Source: Colwellia sp.
GTDB taxonomy: Bacteria; Pseudomonadota; Gammaproteobacteria; Enterobacterales; Alteromonadaceae
Length of the DNA: 59,970 bases
Reading direction: 5' to 3'
Assembly (NCBI GenBank): GCA_016765685.1
Contig: JAESPR010000114.1
Location: 1-59,970, forward strand
This document shows positions 28,710 to 38,119 of this stretch, in pieces. Each line of letters starts with the position of its first letter. Position 1 is the first letter of the stretch. The notes below the pieces were generated by a model that ran no database searches, had not been told where the DNA came from, and worked only from the letters and a program-made list of their open reading frames with translations. The translations under genes and the position numbers were made by a program.

Positions 28710-29702
28710 TTACACTGTTCTCAATTCAATAAAACGTTCAACAAATGGCTTAAAATGGTATTGGTCTATTAAACCAAAATGATGTTTATGATCTTTGAGA
28801 ATAATACCACCCGCCATATGTGAATGGCCGCCACCAAAACCACGACCGCTATCATTTAGTATTTCTCGAGCCACTAAACCTACATTGGTTTTAGGGCATT
28901 CTGAACGCAATGATATTTGAATATTATCATTGGCTTGTGTTGCGACAATAACAACATCGATTTCATTCACTTTTAACAGAAAGTCACTCAAAATACCTAA
29001 CATATTTTTAGGGCAAGCTACGGTCATAAAAACCGTGGCCACACCGAGTTCAATTTGCACTCGGCTCATGGCATGGGTAAATAATGCTAGCTCTTTTAAT
29101 TCAATTTCATTTCGGCACACTTTATTAACAATATCAAGCCGTGCATTGTTATTAAAATAAGCAAAAGAACGAATGTCAGCATTCACAAAACCGCGGGTTA
29201 AATTAGCCGTATCAATATTCAAACCAACCATTAAGGCGGTAGCGACATTGCGTGGCATTTTCAGCCCAAGCAAACAATAATATTCATAAAGAATGGTGGC
29301 CGTTGCCCCGTACTCGGGACGAATATCACTAAACCATAAATTGGGGGGTGCGGTAACTTGGTGATGATCGATAACAGCAATTTCATCTCCAGGTAAATCT
29401 AAAACATTTTTCTCACCAATGCAGCCGTCTACCGTCACTATTTTATCTGCAGGGGAAAGTGTCACCTGATTAATATGAAAAACCGGTATTTCTAACCAAT
29501 CAATCATATTTGACAATGAAATTCGGTCTATATTGCCATTATAAACAATGAGCGTGGTGGCTCCTTTAGCTTGAAAAAGATGCGCCAAAGCATAAGCAGA
29601 GGATATCGCGTCATGGTCAGGAAAGTCATGAGCCTGAATAATAATGCGATCCAAAACAACAATACGCTCTACAAAGTTTTCTAATTCAGTTTTGGTTATC
29701 AT
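28710..29702 (-). CDS. DHH family phosphoesterase, NrnA-like
   Basis: About 330 residues. The DHH domain shows HDFPDHDAISSA near the start, VTVDGC and the name-giving IDHHQV; the C-terminal DHHA1 domain has the glycine-rich GRGFGGGHSHMAGG. Relatives hydrolyse short oligoribonucleotides or 3'-phosphoadenosine 5'-phosphate with manganese. ATG 29702 has AAAGG seven bases upstream and is preferred; ATG 29726 is 8 codons earlier with a weak site. It follows mltC by a few bases to 33 bases on the same strand, so it is likely the last gene of that operon, although its cytosolic role looks unrelated. Confidence 0.85.
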   Translation of the reverse strand: MITKTELENFVERIVVLDRIIIQAHDFPDHDAISSAYALAHLFQAKGATTLIVYNGNIDRISLSNMIDWLEIPVFHINQVTLSPADKIVTVDGCIGEKNVLDLPGDEIAVIDHHQVTAPPNLWFSDIRPEYGATATILYEYYCLLGLKMPRNVATALMVGLNIDTANLTRGFVNADIRSFAYFNNNARLDIVNKVCRNEIELKELALFTHAMSRVQIELGVATVFMTVACPKNMLGILSDFLLKVNEIDVVIVATQANDNIQISLRSECPKTNVGLVAREILNDSGRGFGGGHSHMAGGIILKDHKHHFGLIDQYHFKPFVERFIELRTV

Positions 29703-29735
29703 ATTTTTACCTTTGGCTGCTTTCATAATACAGCT

Positions 29736-31163
29736 TTAGAGACTTTCTACCGGCGCGTAGATATTTTGGCGTTTAACTACCTTTTTCATATAATGCTTAG
29801 TTTCATCATAGGGTAAGTTCTTAACTAAGTGATCATAAACCTGTTCCGGTGTTAGTTTATTAATAATTTTAGCGGCACGATTGATATTACGTGATTTATC
29901 TATATTAAATGTTCTAGCGACATTGCCACTGCCGGTATTGTAGGCCGCAATCATGCAGTACAAACGACTTTTCGGATCTTTTATTTTCCGTAAATAACGA
30001 GAGTTTAAAATATGCATATAAGCAACCCCAGCCGTTATATTATAGTTGGGTAAAAACAAATCTGCTTCGGTCATTGGCGCATCTTTTTTATTCAACATTC
30101 GGTTAACATCAACGCCTGCTGTTCTAGGAACTATTTGCATCAAACCATACGCGGGTACATGAGATTGAGCTTTAGGGTTAAAATAACTTTCAGTGTGCAT
30201 AATGGCTAACATCAAACTAGGTGATAATTGCCAACGTTCACTTTGATTTTTAACCTGACCAATAAAAGGTTTTGCTTTAGTTAAGGCATTTTTGTGAGCT
30301 AAAGGCATAGTAAAAGTGGTGATTTTTTTGCTTTTTAAAGCCTCTTTTTTTGCTTTATTACTCTCAAGCTTAGCTGTTTGAGCTTGTAATACCGAGATTC
30401 TTCGTTGAGTTTCCTTTTCTATTTGCACTTTTTGTTTAGCTATGACTTTTTCGGTATTTTCTTGTGCAACTTGTTCTTGCGCTTTAGACACCAATTGTTT
30501 CTCATCATCGACGTCAAGTTGATCAATAATTTTTTCAATTTGATTTTTTTGTGCCTGTCCTTGCTGCTTTATACGCTTAATTTCTTTATTGAGCACGGCA
30601 CCTTTATTGGTTGCCACTTGTGCGGACGATTCTTCTTTTTTAGCATTTTTCACTAGATCATTAACTAAAGTTTTATCTATTTTTTCACCAACAAGTTGTG
30701 CTAACACCTGATCTTTACTTGCTTGATTAGTAAGTACTGCAATAACATCTTTAGCCTCAACCACTTGATCTTCATCGTGCAATACACTGATACGAATTTC
30801 ATTTTTTTCAAAATCCAACACGGTTTTTACCGTTTTATCTGCACTGTATTCAACCAACTCTTCTTGTGACGAGACTTCGGCATCTCCCCATAAACTGATT
30901 AAATTATCCCTGATATCATCAACTTTTTGAAAATATTCTTGTCTAAATTTTTGGTAATCAGCTAGGTATTCATCCTTCCATTGTTGGAATTCTGTCATTT
31001 CAGCGTCACTACCTTCATAGCTTAACTCAGCCATGGCTTGATCAAGTTCAGCAAAGGGGTCATCCTCGGGTGGATGTCTCTGCTGATTGGCAAACGTTGC
31101 TGCTGAAGTAACGATTCCAGATAGAACTAATAATATGACTAAAGTAATCTTGCTGATTTTCAT
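29736..31163 (-). CDS. mltC: Membrane-bound lytic murein transglycosylase C-like
   Basis: A 475-residue exported protein. An N-terminal MltC-type domain (about 35-175, DPFAELDQAMAEL, then ISLWGDAEVSSQ) precedes a lysine- and glutamine-rich coiled coil (about 175-285), then a soluble-lytic-transglycosylase domain with the catalytic glutamate in HTESYFNPKAQS, AYGLMQIVPRTAG and AAYNTGSGNVAR. It cleaves peptidoglycan glycan strands. E. coli MltC has 359 residues and is a lipoprotein; this one is longer by the coiled coil and has a signal peptide without a lipobox cysteine (VTSAATFA). It is transcribed 23 bases after the preceding membrane-protein gene. Confidence 0.88.
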   Translation of the reverse strand: MKISKITLVILLVLSGIVTSAATFANQQRHPPEDDPFAELDQAMAELSYEGSDAEMTEFQQWKDEYLADYQKFRQEYFQKVDDIRDNLISLWGDAEVSSQEELVEYSADKTVKTVLDFEKNEIRISVLHDEDQVVEAKDVIAVLTNQASKDQVLAQLVGEKIDKTLVNDLVKNAKKEESSAQVATNKGAVLNKEIKRIKQQGQAQKNQIEKIIDQLDVDDEKQLVSKAQEQVAQENTEKVIAKQKVQIEKETQRRISVLQAQTAKLESNKAKKEALKSKKITTFTMPLAHKNALTKAKPFIGQVKNQSERWQLSPSLMLAIMHTESYFNPKAQSHVPAYGLMQIVPRTAGVDVNRMLNKKDAPMTEADLFLPNYNITAGVAYMHILNSRYLRKIKDPKSRLYCMIAAYNTGSGNVARTFNIDKSRNINRAAKIINKLTPEQVYDHLVKNLPYDETKHYMKKVVKRQNIYAPVESL

Positions 31164-31186
31164 AACATGTCCTTAAGGTCCCTAGT

Positions 31187-32014
31187 TTAACTTTTGGTAA
31201 ATAATTGAAACTCATACCGCGTTAACAACGCTTCGGCAATAATTACCGGCTCTAGCTCCGTAATAGCATAAAAATTAGGAAATACGGCTTGTCGCACTTT
31301 TTTTAACGGCGCAACTAATGCTTGTTCATTTTCTGCAAACGTAGCTTTTTCATCTAAGTTTTCAATTGTTTTAGCCAGTTGTTTTCTATAATTTTCGTTA
31401 ACTTCCTCTTCTTGAGCGATAGCACCATATTCAACGTAACCACGTATTAAGGTTAAGAACATTTGCTCCTTACCTAAGTCTTGTGATTCGATATAATAAA
31501 GTAAGTTGCCAATATCATAACTATAGGCACCCGTTTCTTTATGTGCTTGTGCTAAACTTTTCTCGCCAAGTTGTTCAGCAAAAGGGATTTTAGGCGAAAA
31601 TCCATCTTCGAGAGTAAAAACACTATAACCGACTAAACGATCATCCGCAGAAATAAGCGTTAGTGTATATTTTGCTTTGCTGTAATAATGAAACTGTAGC
31701 TTGTTGTTTAACTTCGATCGTTTTAAAACATGCGGCTCCCCAACAATAGATTTAACATAATCCATACTGCTACCGACATTCACTTTTTCGATCAACTCAT
31801 ATTCGATACTGTGAGTAAAGTGGGTTAATGTCGCCTCATAAACACTCAAAAATATATCTTTGGTATCATTGAATTGACCAGCAGAAATCATAATTGCCGC
31901 AATCATCATTATTGTTGTTTGCACTTTTTTCCAAAATGAAGGTGCTGGTGTTTTGTGTTCTTCTAAACGGTCTTCGACTAAGTCATCAACCACATCTTTG
32001 AGGGAGTCATCCAT
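31187..32014 (-). CDS. Single-pass membrane protein of unknown function
   Basis: About 275 residues: an acidic cytosolic N-terminus, one membrane segment (about 32-50, TIMMIAAIMISAGQF) and a large C-terminal domain outside. NVGSSMDYVKSIVGEPHVLKR and LQFHYYSKAKYTLTLISADDRLVGY recall a small-lipoprotein-like SmpA/BamE pattern, or the domain called ETEC_3214, but I cannot confirm either. ATG 32014 with AAGAG upstream is preferred to a longer reading from 32050. It lies between the LPP20 lipoprotein and mltC genes, so a role at the cell wall is likely by context. Confidence 0.55.
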   Translation of the reverse strand: MDDSLKDVVDDLVEDRLEEHKTPAPSFWKKVQTTIMMIAAIMISAGQFNDTKDIFLSVYEATLTHFTHSIEYELIEKVNVGSSMDYVKSIVGEPHVLKRSKLNNKLQFHYYSKAKYTLTLISADDRLVGYSVFTLEDGFSPKIPFAEQLGEKSLAQAHKETGAYSYDIGNLLYYIESQDLGKEQMFLTLIRGYVEYGAIAQEEEVNENYRKQLAKTIENLDEKATFAENEQALVAPLKKVRQAVFPNFYAITELEPVIIAEALLTRYEFQLFTKS

Positions 32015-32129
32015 AAATACTCTTATTTTTTTTATGACAAATAAAAGCAACTACTCACTAAAATGTTAGTGAGTAGCAACCTATTAGACCAAACAATAAA
32101 CGGCAGCAATAATAACTACCTTCATCTTA

Positions 32130-32726
32130 TTAGTTAGTTAAACGCTGTATTTCTTTTTCAAGACTTTGTTCAGCTTTATGGGCTTTAAACTCTTGGTATA
32201 AAAACTTTTCATCTTGTGGGTTAACTGAACGTTTGCTTCCTTTCACTAAAGCATTAAATAATTCTTTAGTTGCCGACGGACTTAAGGTAGTTAACACACA
32301 AAAATGCTGCTTGCCCGCAATATCAATAATATCTGATTTAATCGCTCGTGAACCCGATAATGTTTGTTTGGTTAATTGTTTAGAAACAGAGCTAAAAGTA
32401 GCACCGGTAGTTAACTCTTCGTTTGAGTCTGTACGATTAGCATAGGTTTTATCTAAACCTTCAACGCGTGTTTCAATTTGTTGTGCTAAAGACAAACGGC
32501 CATTGGCTGTTGCCATTTTTTGATCAATAGATAAATTGCCCGAAAACTTAACACAGTCGGTTGCGGCAATACCATCTTCAACAACAGGGTTTAATACCCA
32601 AGCAGGAATACCTGTTGTTAGGCTATTAGTTTCTTTTACTTCTGGTTCTGTTTTTTTTGCTGATGAGCCGCATGCGGCTATAATTGTAGTCATTGCCGCA
32701 ACAATGATAAACTTTTGTGCTTTCAT
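32130..32726 (-). CDS. LPP20 family lipoprotein
   Basis: A 198-residue lipoprotein (lipobox IAAC, Cys 19). After a short linker, IPAWVLNPVVEDGI starts an LPP20-type module: a PxWxxxP entry, a strand with VKFSGNLS, and a long helix (MATANGRLSLAQQI) with later Ser/Thr-rich strands (FCVLTTLSP). LPP20-family proteins sit in outer membranes or flagellar sheaths; here nothing flagellar lies nearby. It follows another LPP20-type gene and precedes the membrane-protein gene and mltC. Confidence 0.75.
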   Translation of the reverse strand: MKAQKFIIVAAMTTIIAACGSSAKKTEPEVKETNSLTTGIPAWVLNPVVEDGIAATDCVKFSGNLSIDQKMATANGRLSLAQQIETRVEGLDKTYANRTDSNEELTTGATFSSVSKQLTKQTLSGSRAIKSDIIDIAGKQHFCVLTTLSPSATKELFNALVKGSKRSVNPQDEKFLYQEFKAHKAEQSLEKEIQRLTN

Positions 32727-32828
32727 GTTATTTCCTTTTATGTAAATCGATTTTCCACTACTAGTTATAAATAATTTTTTTTACTATTACCAATAAATCT
32801 TTCATGTTTTAAAAAACTGAGCTAAAAC

Positions 32829-33938
32829 TTAACGAACTTCACTTTCAAGTAACCATGCATAAACCACTAATTTATTATTTTTTTCAATTATTTTAATGTC
32901 TTGTAATTGTGCACTAACCATGGCTTCAGTATCCATAGTTGTTTTTGCCAAGGAGTACGAACCCTGATGATATTTCAACTGATAATTATGATCGATGGTA
33001 ATTTTTTTTGTTTTGGCTAATTCAATCAAACCATCTTTGATGGCGAGTTTTATCGCACTACTAAAACGACCATCAGCAACAATGCCATCAAAGGCTCCAA
33101 CTATACCAGTTTGTTTACCTATGTTTGGCGCTTTCAACCACTCAGGGTAGGACTTAAACTTTCCATCACTCAACGAAACAGTAGGGTACGTATAACGAGC
33201 GAATAAATAATTGGACGTTTGACAGCTATGAGTATTCAATAAATTAATGGTATTACCTAAACCAATAACAGAGCCACTGTGCTGTGAGCACCCCCAATTT
33301 TGATATTTTCCTGTTGATTTCACTTGGTAGCTATGATCTTTTACGTCAGATTTAAAAATATACTTCAACAATTCTTGAGCATTATTTTTTGTGGTGGCAA
33401 GTTGCTTCGCCGGATTAGCCGTCATTTGACTAACACCGTGAATCACACCAACAGAGGGTTTGTTTTGTGTGCCCATTGTCGTTATGTTATCACTGCACAA
33501 CCACAGTGGTTGACATTGTTTAAAGTCACAGCTTTGCTGGGGACACTGCTGCGCTAACCATTGCTGTTGTTCAACAATAGCAGCGCTATTGTGCTCAATA
33601 GTGGCATAACTATAAAGCGCTTGGTTATTTATGTATGGGGTTGAGAAAAGAATTTGTTTGCCATTAGCAAGTAGAACACGCTTTTCGTTAACATCAAGCG
33701 CGTTGATGTTAACGTTAAAGCCATAATATTGACTCAAACTTGTTAGCGCCCGTTTTCGACTCGCAATTAAAGAACCATTAACGCTACTACTAAAAGGATT
33801 AGCGGCGCCAATAAAACCCGTTTGGCTTTCAGTGACTGGATTATTTAACCAACAAGGAAGAGAGTCAATAGCAACACCAATGTTCGCATGCACTAACAAT
33901 AATAAAGCTAACAGTATTTTAATTAAGATACATTTCAT
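32829..33938 (-). CDS. Exported protein with two LPP20-like modules
   Basis: A 369-residue protein with a signal peptide (about 1-23, VGA|I) and no lipobox. Two LPP20-like modules are visible: one from LPCWLNNPVTESQTGFIGAA (about 26) and one from YPEWLKAPNIGKQTGIVGAF (about 264). Between them lies a cysteine-rich patch (CPQQSC, CQPLWLC) that is probably disulfide-bonded. It is the first gene of the leftward operon and diverges from the COG3014 gene, with 187 AT-rich bases between that should hold both promoters. The function is unknown. Confidence 0.6.
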   Translation of the reverse strand: MKCILIKILLALLLLVHANIGVAIDSLPCWLNNPVTESQTGFIGAANPFSSSVNGSLIASRKRALTSLSQYYGFNVNINALDVNEKRVLLANGKQILFSTPYINNQALYSYATIEHNSAAIVEQQQWLAQQCPQQSCDFKQCQPLWLCSDNITTMGTQNKPSVGVIHGVSQMTANPAKQLATTKNNAQELLKYIFKSDVKDHSYQVKSTGKYQNWGCSQHSGSVIGLGNTINLLNTHSCQTSNYLFARYTYPTVSLSDGKFKSYPEWLKAPNIGKQTGIVGAFDGIVADGRFSSAIKLAIKDGLIELAKTKKITIDHNYQLKYHQGSYSLAKTTMDTEAMVSAQLQDIKIIEKNNKLVVYAWLLESEVR

Positions 33939-34125
33939 GGCAGAAGTTCCAATCCTTGCGAAACATCAATCAAACTGACTTTTTCACTATCATAAGTTAA
34001 TTTACGCCTGAATACTAACGACTTTTCAGATAACAAAATATAATTTATTGTACATTTATAATATGGTGCTACAGTATAAATGTTACTGCTTTGTAATACT
34101 TTTAATAATAAATAGGATGTTTAAA

Positions 34126-35850
34126 ATGAAAAAAGTTATCGGTATAATTATTGCGACCATGTTTATCAGTGGTTGTGGTTCAACATTAAAACCTAAAGTA
34201 GATCACTTAGAGCTTGTTCGTGATGGAAATTATAACCATGCAGAACAAATTATTGTTGAATCGGTTGCTGCAGAAGGAAGCAATAAACTTCTGCATTATC
34301 TAGAAATGGGCATGCTCGCCCACTTGCAAGGTAATTATCAAAAAAGTAATCAGTTATTTGATCAAGCAGAACGCATTAGTGAAGAATTATACACCACCAG
34401 CATTTCAGACATTGGTCTTGAATCAATAACTGGCGCTAGCTTTTCCTCCTACAAAGGACTCAACTTTGAACAAACTTTTGTTGGTTATTACAAAGCATTA
34501 AATTACTTAAAATTAGCCGAAACTCAAGATAAATTCAGTGAAAGCGATCTTGACCGAGCTTTAGTCGAAGTACGACGTTTAGGTAATAGATTAACTGAAT
34601 TAACCACCAAAACGGGTGGTTATCAAGAAAAAACTGATGAAGACGAGTCACCAATCGAAATGATGTTAGGTTTTCTAAAAGAAGCTTTGGGTGCGTCTAT
34701 TAATAGTGATGAATTAGCTTATAAAGATGATGCATTCGCTCATTATCTATCGGGGATGCTGTTTGAAATCAGTGGTGATTTAGACGCGGCACGAGTTGAA
34801 TATGAAAAGTCTGCCCATGCTTATGAAAATGGTTTTGCCGAAAATTATAAATTAGGTAAAAAAGGTGCTGCTCAAGTTTGGTACGATACCGCACGGGTGA
34901 TGAAAATAGCTGGAGGATATGATGAAAAATTACGTAAAATATCCAAAAAACATCTAACAAGCAAACAGCGTAAGTTATTAAAAAGTGTTAATGCTAAATC
35001 ATCTGAATTAGTCGTTATTCAGCATTTAGGTTTTGCCCCGCAGAAAAAGCAACTCAACATGACATTAACAGCAGAAGCCCATTCTAAATCTTTAGTGTTA
35101 ACTCCCGTTCCTATGGGCACAGAAAAAGAGAAACAAGATCAATTGCATTGGTTTAAAATGCTTTATGCTGATAATGATTTATTTACTGTAATGAAAAATT
35201 ATGCTTCAGGTGATCTGCACGCAGTTGCTACGGCCAATGTAACTAAGCGTATATCTCTGGGTCCACTCTGGGGCAGAGCAGAAGAATTAGGGTTAATTAG
35301 CGCTTTATCAATCCCTTCTCGAGTTGCGGTCTCCTACTACCCAAGTATGGAAAAAACCTTTATTAAATCGGAACTCTTTATTAACGGAAAATTAGCTTCA
35401 GAGTTATATCAAGGCAATAATATTGCTCGCATCGCCCTGCAAGAGCAGCTGAACGTTGCCAATACTCAAATTCAGCTGGCATTAGCGCGCGAAATTACTA
35501 AAGCAATTTTAGCCGAAAAAACTGCCGCCGCAGCAGGTCAATGGGGAGCGATCGCCGGCATAGGATTAAAAGCATTAAACGCAGCAACAGCAAGCGCAGA
35601 TACTCGCAATTGGACAACATTACCGGGGGCAATAAAATTCGCCCGTGTTACCCTACCCCCTGGTGAACATAAATTAGTCTTAAAAACACAGTTATCTTCT
35701 GGTAGAATATTAGAGCAGTCGCAGGTAGTTAAAACAACAAAACATCGGCCTAAAATGTGGCATACCCGTACACTTTCTCGACTACCAAAACCTGAATTAA
35801 CAACTAACACAGCGATTGCAGAAACTAGCAAACAAACCAGTACAGAATAA
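34126..35850 (+). CDS. COG3014-type lipoprotein with TPR-like helices
   Basis: A 574-residue lipoprotein (lipobox ISGC, Cys 17). Residues about 20-270 carry TPR-like helical repeats (HYLEMGMLAHLQGNYQKSNQLFDQAE, and again near 225-250); the C-terminal half has a beta-rich domain and a glycine/alanine-rich segment (about 460-495, AAAAGQWGAIAGIGLKALNAA). This is the architecture of COG3014 proteins of Vibrio and Shewanella. ATG 34126 has AGGA eight bases upstream; an earlier frame from 34048 lacks it. It starts the rightward operon with the LpoB-like gene 102 bases downstream. Confidence 0.75.
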   Translation: MKKVIGIIIATMFISGCGSTLKPKVDHLELVRDGNYNHAEQIIVESVAAEGSNKLLHYLEMGMLAHLQGNYQKSNQLFDQAERISEELYTTSISDIGLESITGASFSSYKGLNFEQTFVGYYKALNYLKLAETQDKFSESDLDRALVEVRRLGNRLTELTTKTGGYQEKTDEDESPIEMMLGFLKEALGASINSDELAYKDDAFAHYLSGMLFEISGDLDAARVEYEKSAHAYENGFAENYKLGKKGAAQVWYDTARVMKIAGGYDEKLRKISKKHLTSKQRKLLKSVNAKSSELVVIQHLGFAPQKKQLNMTLTAEAHSKSLVLTPVPMGTEKEKQDQLHWFKMLYADNDLFTVMKNYASGDLHAVATANVTKRISLGPLWGRAEELGLISALSIPSRVAVSYYPSMEKTFIKSELFINGKLASELYQGNNIARIALQEQLNVANTQIQLALAREITKAILAEKTAAAAGQWGAIAGIGLKALNAATASADTRNWTTLPGAIKFARVTLPPGEHKLVLKTQLSSGRILEQSQVVKTTKHRPKMWHTRTLSRLPKPELTTNTAIAETSKQTSTE

Positions 35851-35952
35851 TATCAACCCACTGCGCATGCACTCTTAAAGAGGCATGCGCAAACTTGCTA
35901 TATATTATAGATTTCTATAAAAATTATTAAATTGTCTAAAAAGGATCTAACA

Positions 35953-36567
35953 ATGAAAAATGCCCTAACTAGAATTCGCTTAACAGCGCTTGTTATAATG
36001 AGTTTATTACTATTATCAGCCTGCGGATCGACTAAAGTATCTCGAGTCAGCAGCAGTGAAGAAATTGCCCTTACCGACAAATGGAATGATAAAGATTCAC
36101 AGTTGGTAGCAGAAGCCATGATTAATGATATGTTAGATTTTCCATGGATAGATAAACACTTAAAAAAAGAAGGCTCTAACCCTGCAATCATCATTCAAAG
36201 AGTTCGTAATAAATCACACGAACAAATTGCGGTAGAAACGTTTTTAAATGATTTAAAACGTGCCATTTTACGAAGCGGTCGAGCTGATTTTGTTGCCAAT
36301 AGAGATGTGCGTAATGACGTACGTGCAGAACGGGCAGATCAAGAATTCAATGCCAGTTTAACTACTCAAAAAGAAATGGGTGAAGAGCTTGGCGCAGATT
36401 ACGCGCTAGTTGGCTCTATTAATTCTAGCGTTGACCAATTAGATGGTAAAAGAGTTACCGCATATCAAGTGGATCTATCGTTAATTGATATGACAACCAA
36501 TAGGGAAGTTTGGAATGGACAGAAGAAACTTAAAAAATACCAAGAGCGCTCTAGTTTTGGCTTTTAA
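35953..36567 (+). CDS. LpoB-like penicillin-binding-protein activator lipoprotein
   Basis: A 204-residue lipoprotein (lipobox LSAC, Cys 24). The domain after about residue 45 matches LpoB (COG3417): LVAEAMINDML, PAIIIQRVRNKSHEQIA, FLNDLKRAILRSG, then MGEELGADYALVGSI and LIDMTTNREVWNGQKKLKK. E. coli LpoB reaches through the peptidoglycan to stimulate PBP1b; in other gammaproteobacteria several LpoB-like proteins coexist, so PBP1b activation is probable rather than certain. AAAAGGATC precedes the start. The next gene starts 53 bases before this one ends. Confidence 0.85.
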   Translation: MKNALTRIRLTALVIMSLLLLSACGSTKVSRVSSSEEIALTDKWNDKDSQLVAEAMINDMLDFPWIDKHLKKEGSNPAIIIQRVRNKSHEQIAVETFLNDLKRAILRSGRADFVANRDVRNDVRAERADQEFNASLTTQKEMGEELGADYALVGSINSSVDQLDGKRVTAYQVDLSLIDMTTNREVWNGQKKLKKYQERSSFGF

Positions 36568-38119
36568 ATCATTTTTGCCATTTAGCACTCATGTTATGGC
36601 ACTGTTTTTTGCGATCAGTGCCTATCAAACAACTGCATCTCCGTTACCATCAGGCTCTGAGGGTAACTCGAACAGTAATGCAAAGCCTGGTTGGATAGTA
36701 AAATTACCCCAAGCAACCAACATCATTTACGGTGTTGGTAGTGCCACTATTTATTCCGATGATAGTTATGCACTCAAAAACGCGAGTGAATCAGCTCGAG
36801 CAGAACTGGCCAAATCTATTCGTGTTAATGTTGCGGCAATCACCAAAGTAAAACAAAGCTCAGACAATGGAAAAATGAGCTTTTATTTTGATGAAGCGAT
36901 TACTAATTCGGTACCCGAAATGGAGCTTGCCGGCTTAAAAATTGCCGATAATTATTTTGATAACATTAACTCGACCGTTTATGTATTAGCCTCTTTTAAT
37001 AAAAAAGAAGCTATTATTGAACTTGGCCAATTACTGACATCAATTGACAGTGAACTAGCCTTAATAACCATTGACTTAGCTGATGCCGCAGGTCAAAAAC
37101 TTGCTCAAGCAATACAAGTTAAAAAGTTATTATTTAAACGCAGGCAATATAATGATCAATTAGCCAATTTGAGACAAGCAAAAATAATGTTACCTGCTCA
37201 TGGTCAAGATTTATTAACAAAATCGGGACAAGTATTTAATAACATTACTTTCGGCGTCTTTAGTAAAACCGATCGAGATCTACAAGAAAAAATTGTTGAG
37301 GCTATTACTGACCAAGGTTTACGAGTTAACAATCGTAATGCTGACTTTTATTTAACTTATCGTATTAAATGGCGTGGCGTGGCGCGCAATAATTTATTCT
37401 ATACTATTGCTAGTGCGACTGTAACGCTTAAAAATGGTGATACTGTACTGCGAAAGTTTAAACAAAAAGCCAAAGGTACCTCGAGTGACGAAGGTATGGC
37501 AAGAGATAAAGCGGTAGAAAAAATTGGTGAACAATTTGCTGCCGTATTGTCAAAAGAGTTAATCGCTAGCTTTCAAAATGCCGCACCTAGCGCAAGCAAG
37601 TCAAAACGCAGTGATGTAATTGACGACACCTTAACTTATCAAGAAACAGCAGCTACCATTAAAAAGCCAGTGCGACACCATATTGCGCCAGTTAGCCACA
37701 CTATAGCCAATACAAGGCAAACGACTCAGACACCAATAGTTAATACTTATCAAAATAATCACAGCATCAGTTTACTCGGGGTGGTTTATACGCTAAAAGC
37801 ATGTTTACGTAATGCTGATATTGTTACTTGTAATTTAATCGCATTAAATCGTAATACCGATCAAAAAATTTATCTGTATCGCCGCAAAAGCAGAGCAATC
37901 GACTTTAATGGCACAGAGTACCCTAGTCAGTATATCGGTATAGGTGGTAAAAAATTAACAAGGTACTCTTCTGTTAATCGTACTCTCGTTCAAGGCATCC
38001 CTATTGTGATGACGGTACAATTTACTCCCGTAAACTATCATGTTAGCACGTTTGCTTTGTTAGAAATAAAAACGCATGCCGGTAATTTACAATACCGAAA
38101 TGTCGGCATTACAAACTAA
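36515..38119 (+). CDS. LPP20 family exported protein, 534 residues
   Basis: The frame starts inside the LpoB-like gene (53-base overlap) with AGGGA eight bases before ATG 36515, which implies translational coupling. A hydrophobic segment (about 28-42, VMALFFAISAYQTTASP) serves as signal or anchor; ATG 36596 just before it is an alternative start. GWIVKLPQATNIIYGVGSA begins an LPP20 module with the helix NASESARAELAKSIRVNV. A second domain follows (about 240-350) and, after a Thr/Gln-rich linker, a C-terminal beta domain (about 410-534). The function is unknown; context ties it to PBP activation. Confidence 0.7.
   Translation: MDRRNLKNTKSALVLAFKSFLPFSTHVMALFFAISAYQTTASPLPSGSEGNSNSNAKPGWIVKLPQATNIIYGVGSATIYSDDSYALKNASESARAELAKSIRVNVAAITKVKQSSDNGKMSFYFDEAITNSVPEMELAGLKIADNYFDNINSTVYVLASFNKKEAIIELGQLLTSIDSELALITIDLADAAGQKLAQAIQVKKLLFKRRQYNDQLANLRQAKIMLPAHGQDLLTKSGQVFNNITFGVFSKTDRDLQEKIVEAITDQGLRVNNRNADFYLTYRIKWRGVARNNLFYTIASATVTLKNGDTVLRKFKQKAKGTSSDEGMARDKAVEKIGEQFAAVLSKELIASFQNAAPSASKSKRSDVIDDTLTYQETAATIKKPVRHHIAPVSHTIANTRQTTQTPIVNTYQNNHSISLLGVVYTLKACLRNADIVTCNLIALNRNTDQKIYLYRRKSRAIDFNGTEYPSQYIGIGGKKLTRYSSVNRTLVQGIPIVMTVQFTPVNYHVSTFALLEIKTHAGNLQYRNVGITN

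Follow-up and report, generated by a model that had tools for sequence, protein, structure and literature searches.

How cells match the work of their wall hydrolases to that of their wall synthases has long been asked. LPP20 proteins are common and, to our knowledge, apart from the FlgP- and FlgT-like ones they are mostly of unknown role. According to the accessible part of one report, FlgP, Lpp20, and FlgT have a common SHS2-like fold, and ring formation accompanies a β-hairpin insert (PMC12222027). The available portion of a second describes HP1454 and HP1456 (Lpp20) of Helicobacter pylori as products of the same operon that, in assays on H. pylori, interact with FlgP and FapH (PMC11756786). 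In the portion available of a third, MltD (a transglycosylase) and AmiA (an amidase) are pulled down by HP0018, a tetratricopeptide repeat (TPR) lipoprotein of H. pylori related to Cj0089, and loss of HP0018 alters cell shape and vesiculation; HP1457/Cj0091 is there termed an LpoB homologue, and the authors themselves ask for confirmation (PMC11394524). The locus considered here occupies positions 28,710 to 38,119 of a 59,970-nucleotide stretch of Colwellia sp. DNA (assembly GCA_016765685.1, contig JAESPR010000114.1; the whole stretch is referred to as the window) and comprises genes for an MltC-type lytic transglycosylase, several LPP20 proteins, an LpoB-type lipoprotein, and a COG3014-type lipoprotein, so that the cutting and building sides of wall metabolism are encoded face to face. 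A sequence-only reading had described eight genes in divergent arrangement, all of whose open reading frames (ORFs) lie where it placed them, and had proposed an outer-membrane system coordinating peptidoglycan cutting and synthesis.

The constant core of this locus pairs an anchorless MltC with an LPP20 lipoprotein; the LpoB operon is often its neighbor but can be separated from it. The reading we favor, with confidence a little short of even, is that of a module for wall cutting, docked at the outer membrane on LPP20 lipoproteins and joined here to an LpoB operon. Recurrence was assessed by searching 84,980 species genomes with an MltC alignment of five rows; the loci analyzed are the best 80 of 533 confirmed, ranked by similarity to the window MltC, and 79 of these could be scored (L128, where no MltC ORF was called, was excluded). 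The hidden Markov models used for counting were built from families of the same loci, many of the 80 loci are close relatives of one another, and proteins matching two groups (LPP20 versus LpoB, CsgG342, or F19) were assigned once. In 73 of the 79 loci MltC has an LPP20 gene no more than 6 kb away, and in 67 the two genes are immediate neighbors on the same strand, with a lipobox in 64 of these LPP20 neighbors. At least two LPP20 genes are found near MltC in 67 loci; of 472 ORFs farther than 6 kb away, one is LPP20. Also near MltC are LpoB (23 loci), ETEC_3214 (37), and COG3014 (22). LpoB or a CsgG342 lipoprotein, jointly with LPP20, is found near the variant MltC in 50 of the 79 loci, or in 61 if the weakly supported F19 is counted. 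The control MltC loci (n = 16, representing 17 of the 22 non-variant MltC rows of the relative-genome search; G054, G045:C1:1697202, G053:C29, G058, and G043:C4 were left out) score 0/16 in every neighbor class.

An even sample of the order (148 genomes) includes eight carriers (5%) of a full-length variant MltC, taken as at least 280 bits, and the system is therefore patchy. The LPP20 lipoprotein gene lies within 1 kb in six of these carriers and at 5.2 kb in G141; in G167 the two genes are unlinked, on different contigs. Fifty genomes had MltC matches of lower score only, and linkage was found in none. The gene order is not unique to the genome of the window, since the relative G006 has the same order (its contig ends inside MltC) and the core is widespread.

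The window MltC has an SLT domain and is nearest to MltC, with a match to Escherichia coli MltC (PDB 4c5f) at E = 2.2e-34, in keeping with its earlier identification, but it scores 167.6 bits against the NCBIfam MltC model, under the cut-off of 375, and no lipobox was found in its sequence (P0007). Its Glu325, invariant in the MltC family A1, is aligned with E. coli MltC in an M-x-T-E-S segment and is presumably the catalytic glutamate. A lipobox pattern occurs in 4 of 87 members of the variant group versus 14 of 16 control MltCs, the background among ORFs being 142/1481. The Mltc_N domain reaches 26-30 bits in three variant MltCs, against 209 bits in a control MltC, and has no Pfam match in the MltCs of the window and of L066. 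All 16 controls fall on one side of a branch in the MltC tree (SH-aLRT 100). Judged from these sequences, the variant branch has lost its lipid anchor. Where the anchor is lost by the enzyme and carried by its neighbor, docking becomes testable via one lipoprotein gene. The genome of the window has a second MltC-type gene (G000:C22, locus L035, 7497-17091), whose neighbors are three LPP20 genes, a GNA1162/LpoB-like protein gene, and MlaD, ABC, and MlaE transporter genes; a similar MltC neighborhood is seen in Glaciecola (L058).

Single-sequence searches of the PDB with phmmer were uninformative (no match for P0001, a chance-level match only for P0003), and family profiles were needed. The PF02169 model scores 21.0 and 25.7 bits in two of the LPP20 proteins, just below its cut-off of 25.9, and has no match in the 369-amino-acid (369-aa) protein. 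The family profile of the LPP20 lipoprotein matches H. pylori Lpp20 (5ok8; E = 7.3e-9), and its model (mean pLDDT 81.9) has a Foldseek probability of 1.00 to Lpp20 and Tip-alpha. The family profile of the 534-aa protein matches 4kzs, an 'LPP20 lipofamily protein' that we take to be HP1454, at E = 1.2e-5. Profile-profile probability is 97.5% between the lipoprotein and the N-module of the 534-aa protein, 91% and 93% between the C-module of the 369-aa protein and these two, and 27-33% at best for the 369-aa N-module; the middle part of the 369-aa protein has no significant profile-profile match to the LPP20 modules. The LPP20 fold is thus found in the lipoprotein by profile and fold, in the 534-aa protein by profile, and in the 369-aa protein in the C-module only. 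Four modules had been read as sharing one fold: the case is solid for three of them and weak for the 369-aa N-module, and one further module is possible. The description of the 369-aa protein as a simple 'double LPP20' protein was set aside, as the model built from five sequences (mean pLDDT 60.7) has three β-α-β-β units, at about 40-131, 163-255, and 278-365, the middle one unproven at this pLDDT; compared with PDB folds, the model found nothing at E ≤ 0.001.

Four entries of a P-x-W-x-x-x-P motif had likewise been described. Three are exact, at residues 28 and 265 of the 369-aa protein and 41 of the lipoprotein; over 2000 shuffles of the three LPP20 proteins, the motif appeared 0.0045 times on average and at most once. 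The fourth, PGWIVKLP in the 534-aa protein, is one residue longer, and the 369-aa protein has an extra P-x-W at 144. A lipobox is present in 52/53 and 26/26 members of the two LPP20 lipoprotein families. The 534-aa protein has a C-terminal extension of about 175 aa that, among 17 aligned sequences, is common only to G006. At L042 (1027-3569, G006:C57), a serine/threonine kinase-like ORF overlaps the one after it, which ends in a stretch similar to the LPP20 lipoprotein (26% over 88 aa), and another LPP20-like gene follows; kinase and LPP20 part are in different frames.

The kinship with FlgP and FlgT raises the possibility, which we find rather doubtful, that the locus encodes a non-flagellar relative of the H-ring or basal disk, in which LPP20 proteins and a lipoprotein of the TolB/CsgG/LpoB fold form an outer-membrane ring or conduit and MltC merely opens the wall. 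The SHS2-like fold of FlgP, FlgT, and Lpp20 (PMC12222027, as far as that source is available) suits this idea, as does the joint recurrence of two kinds of LPP20 protein with an LpoB- or CsgG342-type lipoprotein. CsgG proper stands in the divergent position of G003 and beside MltC in a Bacteroidales metagenome-assembled genome (MAG; 43.5 bits), and at the site of the FlgP hairpin, after the helix and before the second strand, the 369-aa model has short paired strands. The lipoprotein model, however, has helices at 65-99 and 111-125, a helical insert rather than the ring-linked β-hairpin; the 369-aa model finds FlgT (3w1e) no higher than rank 5 (probability 0.15), and the FlgT_N match of the 534-aa protein is 11 bits versus 28.8. 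A flagellar accessory or sheath-related system is very improbable. HP1454 and HP1456 bind FlgP and FapH in the accessible H. pylori results (PMC11756786), and flagellin is present in 19 of 20 carrier genomes tested, a count that says little because most marine relatives swim anyway; no flagellar gene was recognized in the MltC loci examined, and the sole Bacteroidales carrier has no flagellin match.

On the rightward side, the LpoB-like identity proposed earlier stands. PF13036 scores 130.4 bits (cut-off 22.3), the family profile matches LpoB 4q6l (E = 1.5e-9), and a lipobox (LSACGS in the window protein, P0001) is found by pattern in 38/38 family members. The NCBIfam equivalog TIGR02722 reaches 90.8 bits, below its cut-off of 110.55, and the protein is therefore filed as LpoB-type and not as an equivalog. 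The partner domain, PBP1b UB2H, occurs in the same genome (G000:C73, 44.4 bits, cut-off 27), in which the window LpoB is the sole strong LpoB. Calling window-type LpoB at 43% identity or more and the common type at 176 bits or more, the window type occurs in 8 of 61 genomes (that of the window and 60 relatives) and both types together in none. Within the genus (37 genomes) 6 carry the window type, 29 the common type, and 2 neither, with UB2H in 37/37; were the types independent, such non-overlap would have odds of about 1 in 80,000 (8 over 6 divided by 37 over 6), a figure too strong given shared descent. With one strong LpoB per genome, no co-occurrence of the two types, and UB2H present, the LpoB-type protein looks like the LpoB of its genome. 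This swap, with one type or the other but no searched genome having both, provides a natural test for the function of the LpoB partners. COG3014 lies within three genes of LpoB in 15/15 loci examined; LPP20 does so in 8/8 window-type and 0/7 common-type loci, and a DUF1425 (YcfL-type) gene is present in the three common-type loci tested. In 15 further genomes, COG3014 and LpoB are both present within 1 kb in 11 and both absent in 4. The COG3014 profile matches 36 of 61 Campylobacterota genomes; among 20 of these COG3014 loci, 13 have LpoB and 4 an LPP20 match no more than four genes away. The COG3014-type protein of the window has weak TPR matches only in Pfam and NCBIfam, and the label itself comes from the sequence-only reading. 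Two relatives with completeness of 95-100%, G003 and G013, have no LpoB match at E ≤ 0.001 despite a UB2H-bearing PBP1b.

The two halves may also be independent envelope units that are merely neighbors, an LpoB operon serving PBP1b and an uncoupled MltC-LPP20 unit; we consider this unlikely. Each half does occur without the other, and in many genomes COG3014 and LpoB form a pair by themselves. G003 lacks LpoB and carries the left half next to a CsgG-type TPR protein (PF03783, 27.7 bits, in the divergent position), and G001, G004, G016, G034, and G037 have LpoB-COG3014-LPP20 without this MltC. Yet the halves meet again in 19 Pseudoalteromonas loci and, in different layouts, in L056, L115, L132, and L133, and LPP20 proteins are found in both. 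In the first of three layouts LPP20/LpoB/COG3014 diverge from LPP20/MltC (the 19 loci, all Pseudoalteromonas). The second, ETEC_3214-LPP327-CsgG342-LPP199-MltC, occurs in Shewanella, Vibrio, Photobacterium, Alteromonas, and others, and the third is a longer run ending in MltC-LPP20 in Vibrio, Photobacterium, and Shewanella. Further variants are found in Campylobacterota, Desulfoluna, and Halorhodospira. Among the relatives, G056 has the order LPP20-CsgG342-LPP20-MltC-ETEC_3214-DHH, and in G013 LPP20 and MltC lie within a longer gene run. The families LPP349 and LPP327 (99.7% profile homology) and LPPlipo and LPP199 (99.8%) are homologous over nearly their full length, so that the alternative layouts share parts. 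The CsgG342 profile matches that of LpoB at 90.1% over 78 columns (F19 at 73.5%), but it also matches the N-terminal part of the LPP20 lipoprotein, signal peptide included, at 91.8%, and its kinship with LpoB is therefore a lead only.

The five leftward genes had been read as a single operon. The LPP20 lipoprotein gene is separated from the ETEC_3214 gene by a terminator-like hairpin of 12 pairs (32077-32050, minus strand), which makes one simple operon improbable, and the leftward genes are probably two expression units. Terminator-like hairpins were detected by consensus scan, which found 13 such sites in the region where 7.0 were expected. Of 53 pairs made up of an LPP20 lipoprotein gene and a following MltC or ETEC_3214 gene, 35 have a hairpin just after the first gene, compared with 14/179 other within-cluster and 42/489 other co-directional pairs; with gaps of at least 20 bases the counts are 32/45, 7/62, and 21/209. 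Both LPP20 lipoprotein families have it (19/29 and 16/24), and the hairpin sequences differ among loci. The hairpin is possibly an attenuator.

The mechanism we favor may be pictured as follows. The anchorless MltC-type transglycosylase would be exported into the periplasm, where the LPP20-fold lipoprotein encoded alongside would hold it at the outer membrane. This lipoprotein would be made in excess over the enzyme because a leaky terminator between the genes would reduce enzyme transcripts. The larger LPP20 proteins (369 and 534 aa) may form further scaffold. In the right half, the LpoB operon, the LpoB-type lipoprotein, constantly accompanied by the COG3014 lipoprotein, would reach PBP1b, and the joined halves would keep glycan cutting and PBP1b synthesis at the same place and dose. 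What the sequences themselves show is the linkage, the anchor loss, the place of the hairpin, and the exclusivity of LpoB; docking, an LPP20 excess, contact with PBP1b, and coordination go beyond them as inference. A broader version, to which we give rather little credence, is a cross-phylum machine for cutting and building, in which an LPP20 scaffold holds anchorless MltC, a lipoprotein of the TolB/CsgG/LpoB fold talks to the synthase, lineages swap the LpoB-type part for a CsgG342- or CsgG-type one, and the attenuator hairpin sets the scaffold excess.

Several points weigh against docking and coupling as the account of this locus. The 534-aa protein of the window itself has lost the lipobox cysteine, replaced by tyrosine (TAT), where the G006 relative has cysteine (TGC). 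An LPP20 match is missing from six of the 79 loci. L086, L087, L088, and L100 represent one Psychromonas clade; the others are L124, with a CsgG-domain gene after MltC, and L130. The exact eight-gene order was found in one other examined genome only, the two halves are separable elsewhere, and LpoB lies near MltC in just 23 of the 79 loci. The hairpin is missing from 18 of the 53 pairs, the hairpins come from a consensus scan, and the loci are often close relatives. A second LpoB could be missing from the genome of the window, which is 76.9% complete. In the accessible part of the H. pylori work, deletion of HP1456 leaves motility and bacitracin resistance unchanged (PMC11756786). The earlier proposal of an outer-membrane system for cutting and synthesis is a sensible reading, supported in part: the linkage is real and recurrent.

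The features of the locus are collected in Table 1. The ETEC_3214-domain protein, formerly described as a single-pass membrane protein, does have one predicted membrane segment (topology by inspection), and its family is now named; its ORF opens at TTG 32050, with an ATG start at 32014. This family is present in 41 clustered loci and the DHH family in 7, with the order MltC-ETEC_3214-DHH in Vibrio-type loci, and the DHH gene is probably an optional member of the leftward set. Pairwise alignment of the divergent gap (187 bases) with that of G006 (204 bases) gives 152 identities. A shared regulatory site was rejected, as GTAA-N6-GTAA is not in the divergent gap of the window. This sequence, which we take to resemble a CpxR box, occurs in 17 of the 19 Pseudoalteromonas divergent gaps (for example L061) and in 0/28 loci of the CsgG342 layout, with 73 occurrences in the 1,550,411 bases of all 80 loci. 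Anti-phage defense was also rejected; PADLOC gave one weak match (E = 0.00052), to the COG3014 protein only, taken as chance. A six-gene run, F29-F18-F19-F17-F31-F30, of unnamed periplasmic proteins and lipoproteins, followed by MltC and an LPP20 lipoprotein, occurs in L093, L095, L097, L104, L105, L107, L109, and others (Vibrio, Photobacterium, and Shewanella); most of its proteins are without a Pfam or NCBIfam family, and profile comparison found no significant kinship of F17 and F31 with LPP20.

Table 1. Features of the divergent locus, with positions in the window.
Feature	Position	Strand	Basis
DHH/DHHA1 phosphoesterase, cytoplasmic, last leftward gene	28710..29726	-	PF01368 46.1 bits, PF02272 34.7 bits
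MltC-type lytic transglycosylase, non-lipidated branch (by sequence)	29736..31163	-	SLT 92.4 bits
ETEC_3214-domain protein	31187..32014 (ATG)	-	NF043066 153.8 bits, cut-off 35
Terminator-like hairpin 3' of LPP20 lipoprotein gene	32050..32077	-	12-pair stem and T-rich tail
LPP20-fold lipoprotein	32130..32726	-	profile, model, fold search
369-aa periplasmic protein, two, perhaps three, LPP20-like modules	32829..33938	-	P-x-W motifs, profiles, model
Divergent intergenic region, 187 bp	33939..34125	.	between leftward and rightward genes
COG3014-type TPR lipoprotein	34126..35850 (ATG)	+	lipobox ISGCGS; family A10
LpoB-type lipoprotein	35953..36567	+	PF13036 130.4 bits
534-aa LPP20 protein: LPP20 module, second domain, extra C-terminal part	36515..38119	+	PF02169 25.7 bits

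A literature search with few subscription journals within reach returned no paper joining LPP20 and MltC, one that has LPP20 together with LpoB, no paper on COG3014, and no description of this locus. Among known systems, LpoB-PBP1b of E. coli is matched by an LpoB-fold outer-membrane lipoprotein and by PBP1b UB2H in the genome; it differs in that the partners here are COG3014 and LPP20, not DUF1425/YcfL, and in the TIGR02722 score below cut-off. With canonical MltC the window enzyme shares the SLT domain with its M-x-T-E-S segment, and the variant MltC keeps a remnant of the Mltc_N motif; unlike the canonical form, the variant is without a lipobox, has a weak or missing Mltc_N, and stands on a separate tree branch. 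The canonical control at L136, with full Mltc_N, adjoins Iron_traffic (YggX) and MutY-like genes. FlgO/FlgP/FlgT rings likewise place SHS2/LPP20-fold proteins at the outer membrane, whereas the genes here are not in a flagellar cluster, the modeled lipoprotein has a helical insert and not a hairpin, and a dedicated transglycosylase is present. The parts list of Helicobacter and Campylobacter is also similar, as far as the available portions of those reports go, with an LPP20 lipoprotein (HP1456, 5ok8), a larger LPP20 protein (HP1454), and an LpoB homologue (HP1457). From gene order and size, HP0018/Cj0089 may belong to the COG3014 family. Unlike here, no MltC lies beside their COG3014 loci (20 loci, MltC profile). 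If true, a fixed link between LPP20 proteins and a transglycosylase would give the former a role. The experiment that comes closest to supporting a tie between such lipoproteins and wall hydrolases is the HP0018 pull-down, in the accessible part of its report (PMC11394524), from another phylum. In marine bacteria an anchorless MltC recurs beside LPP20-type lipoproteins, here with an LpoB-type protein as well, so that the locus may join the cutting and building of the wall at the outer membrane.

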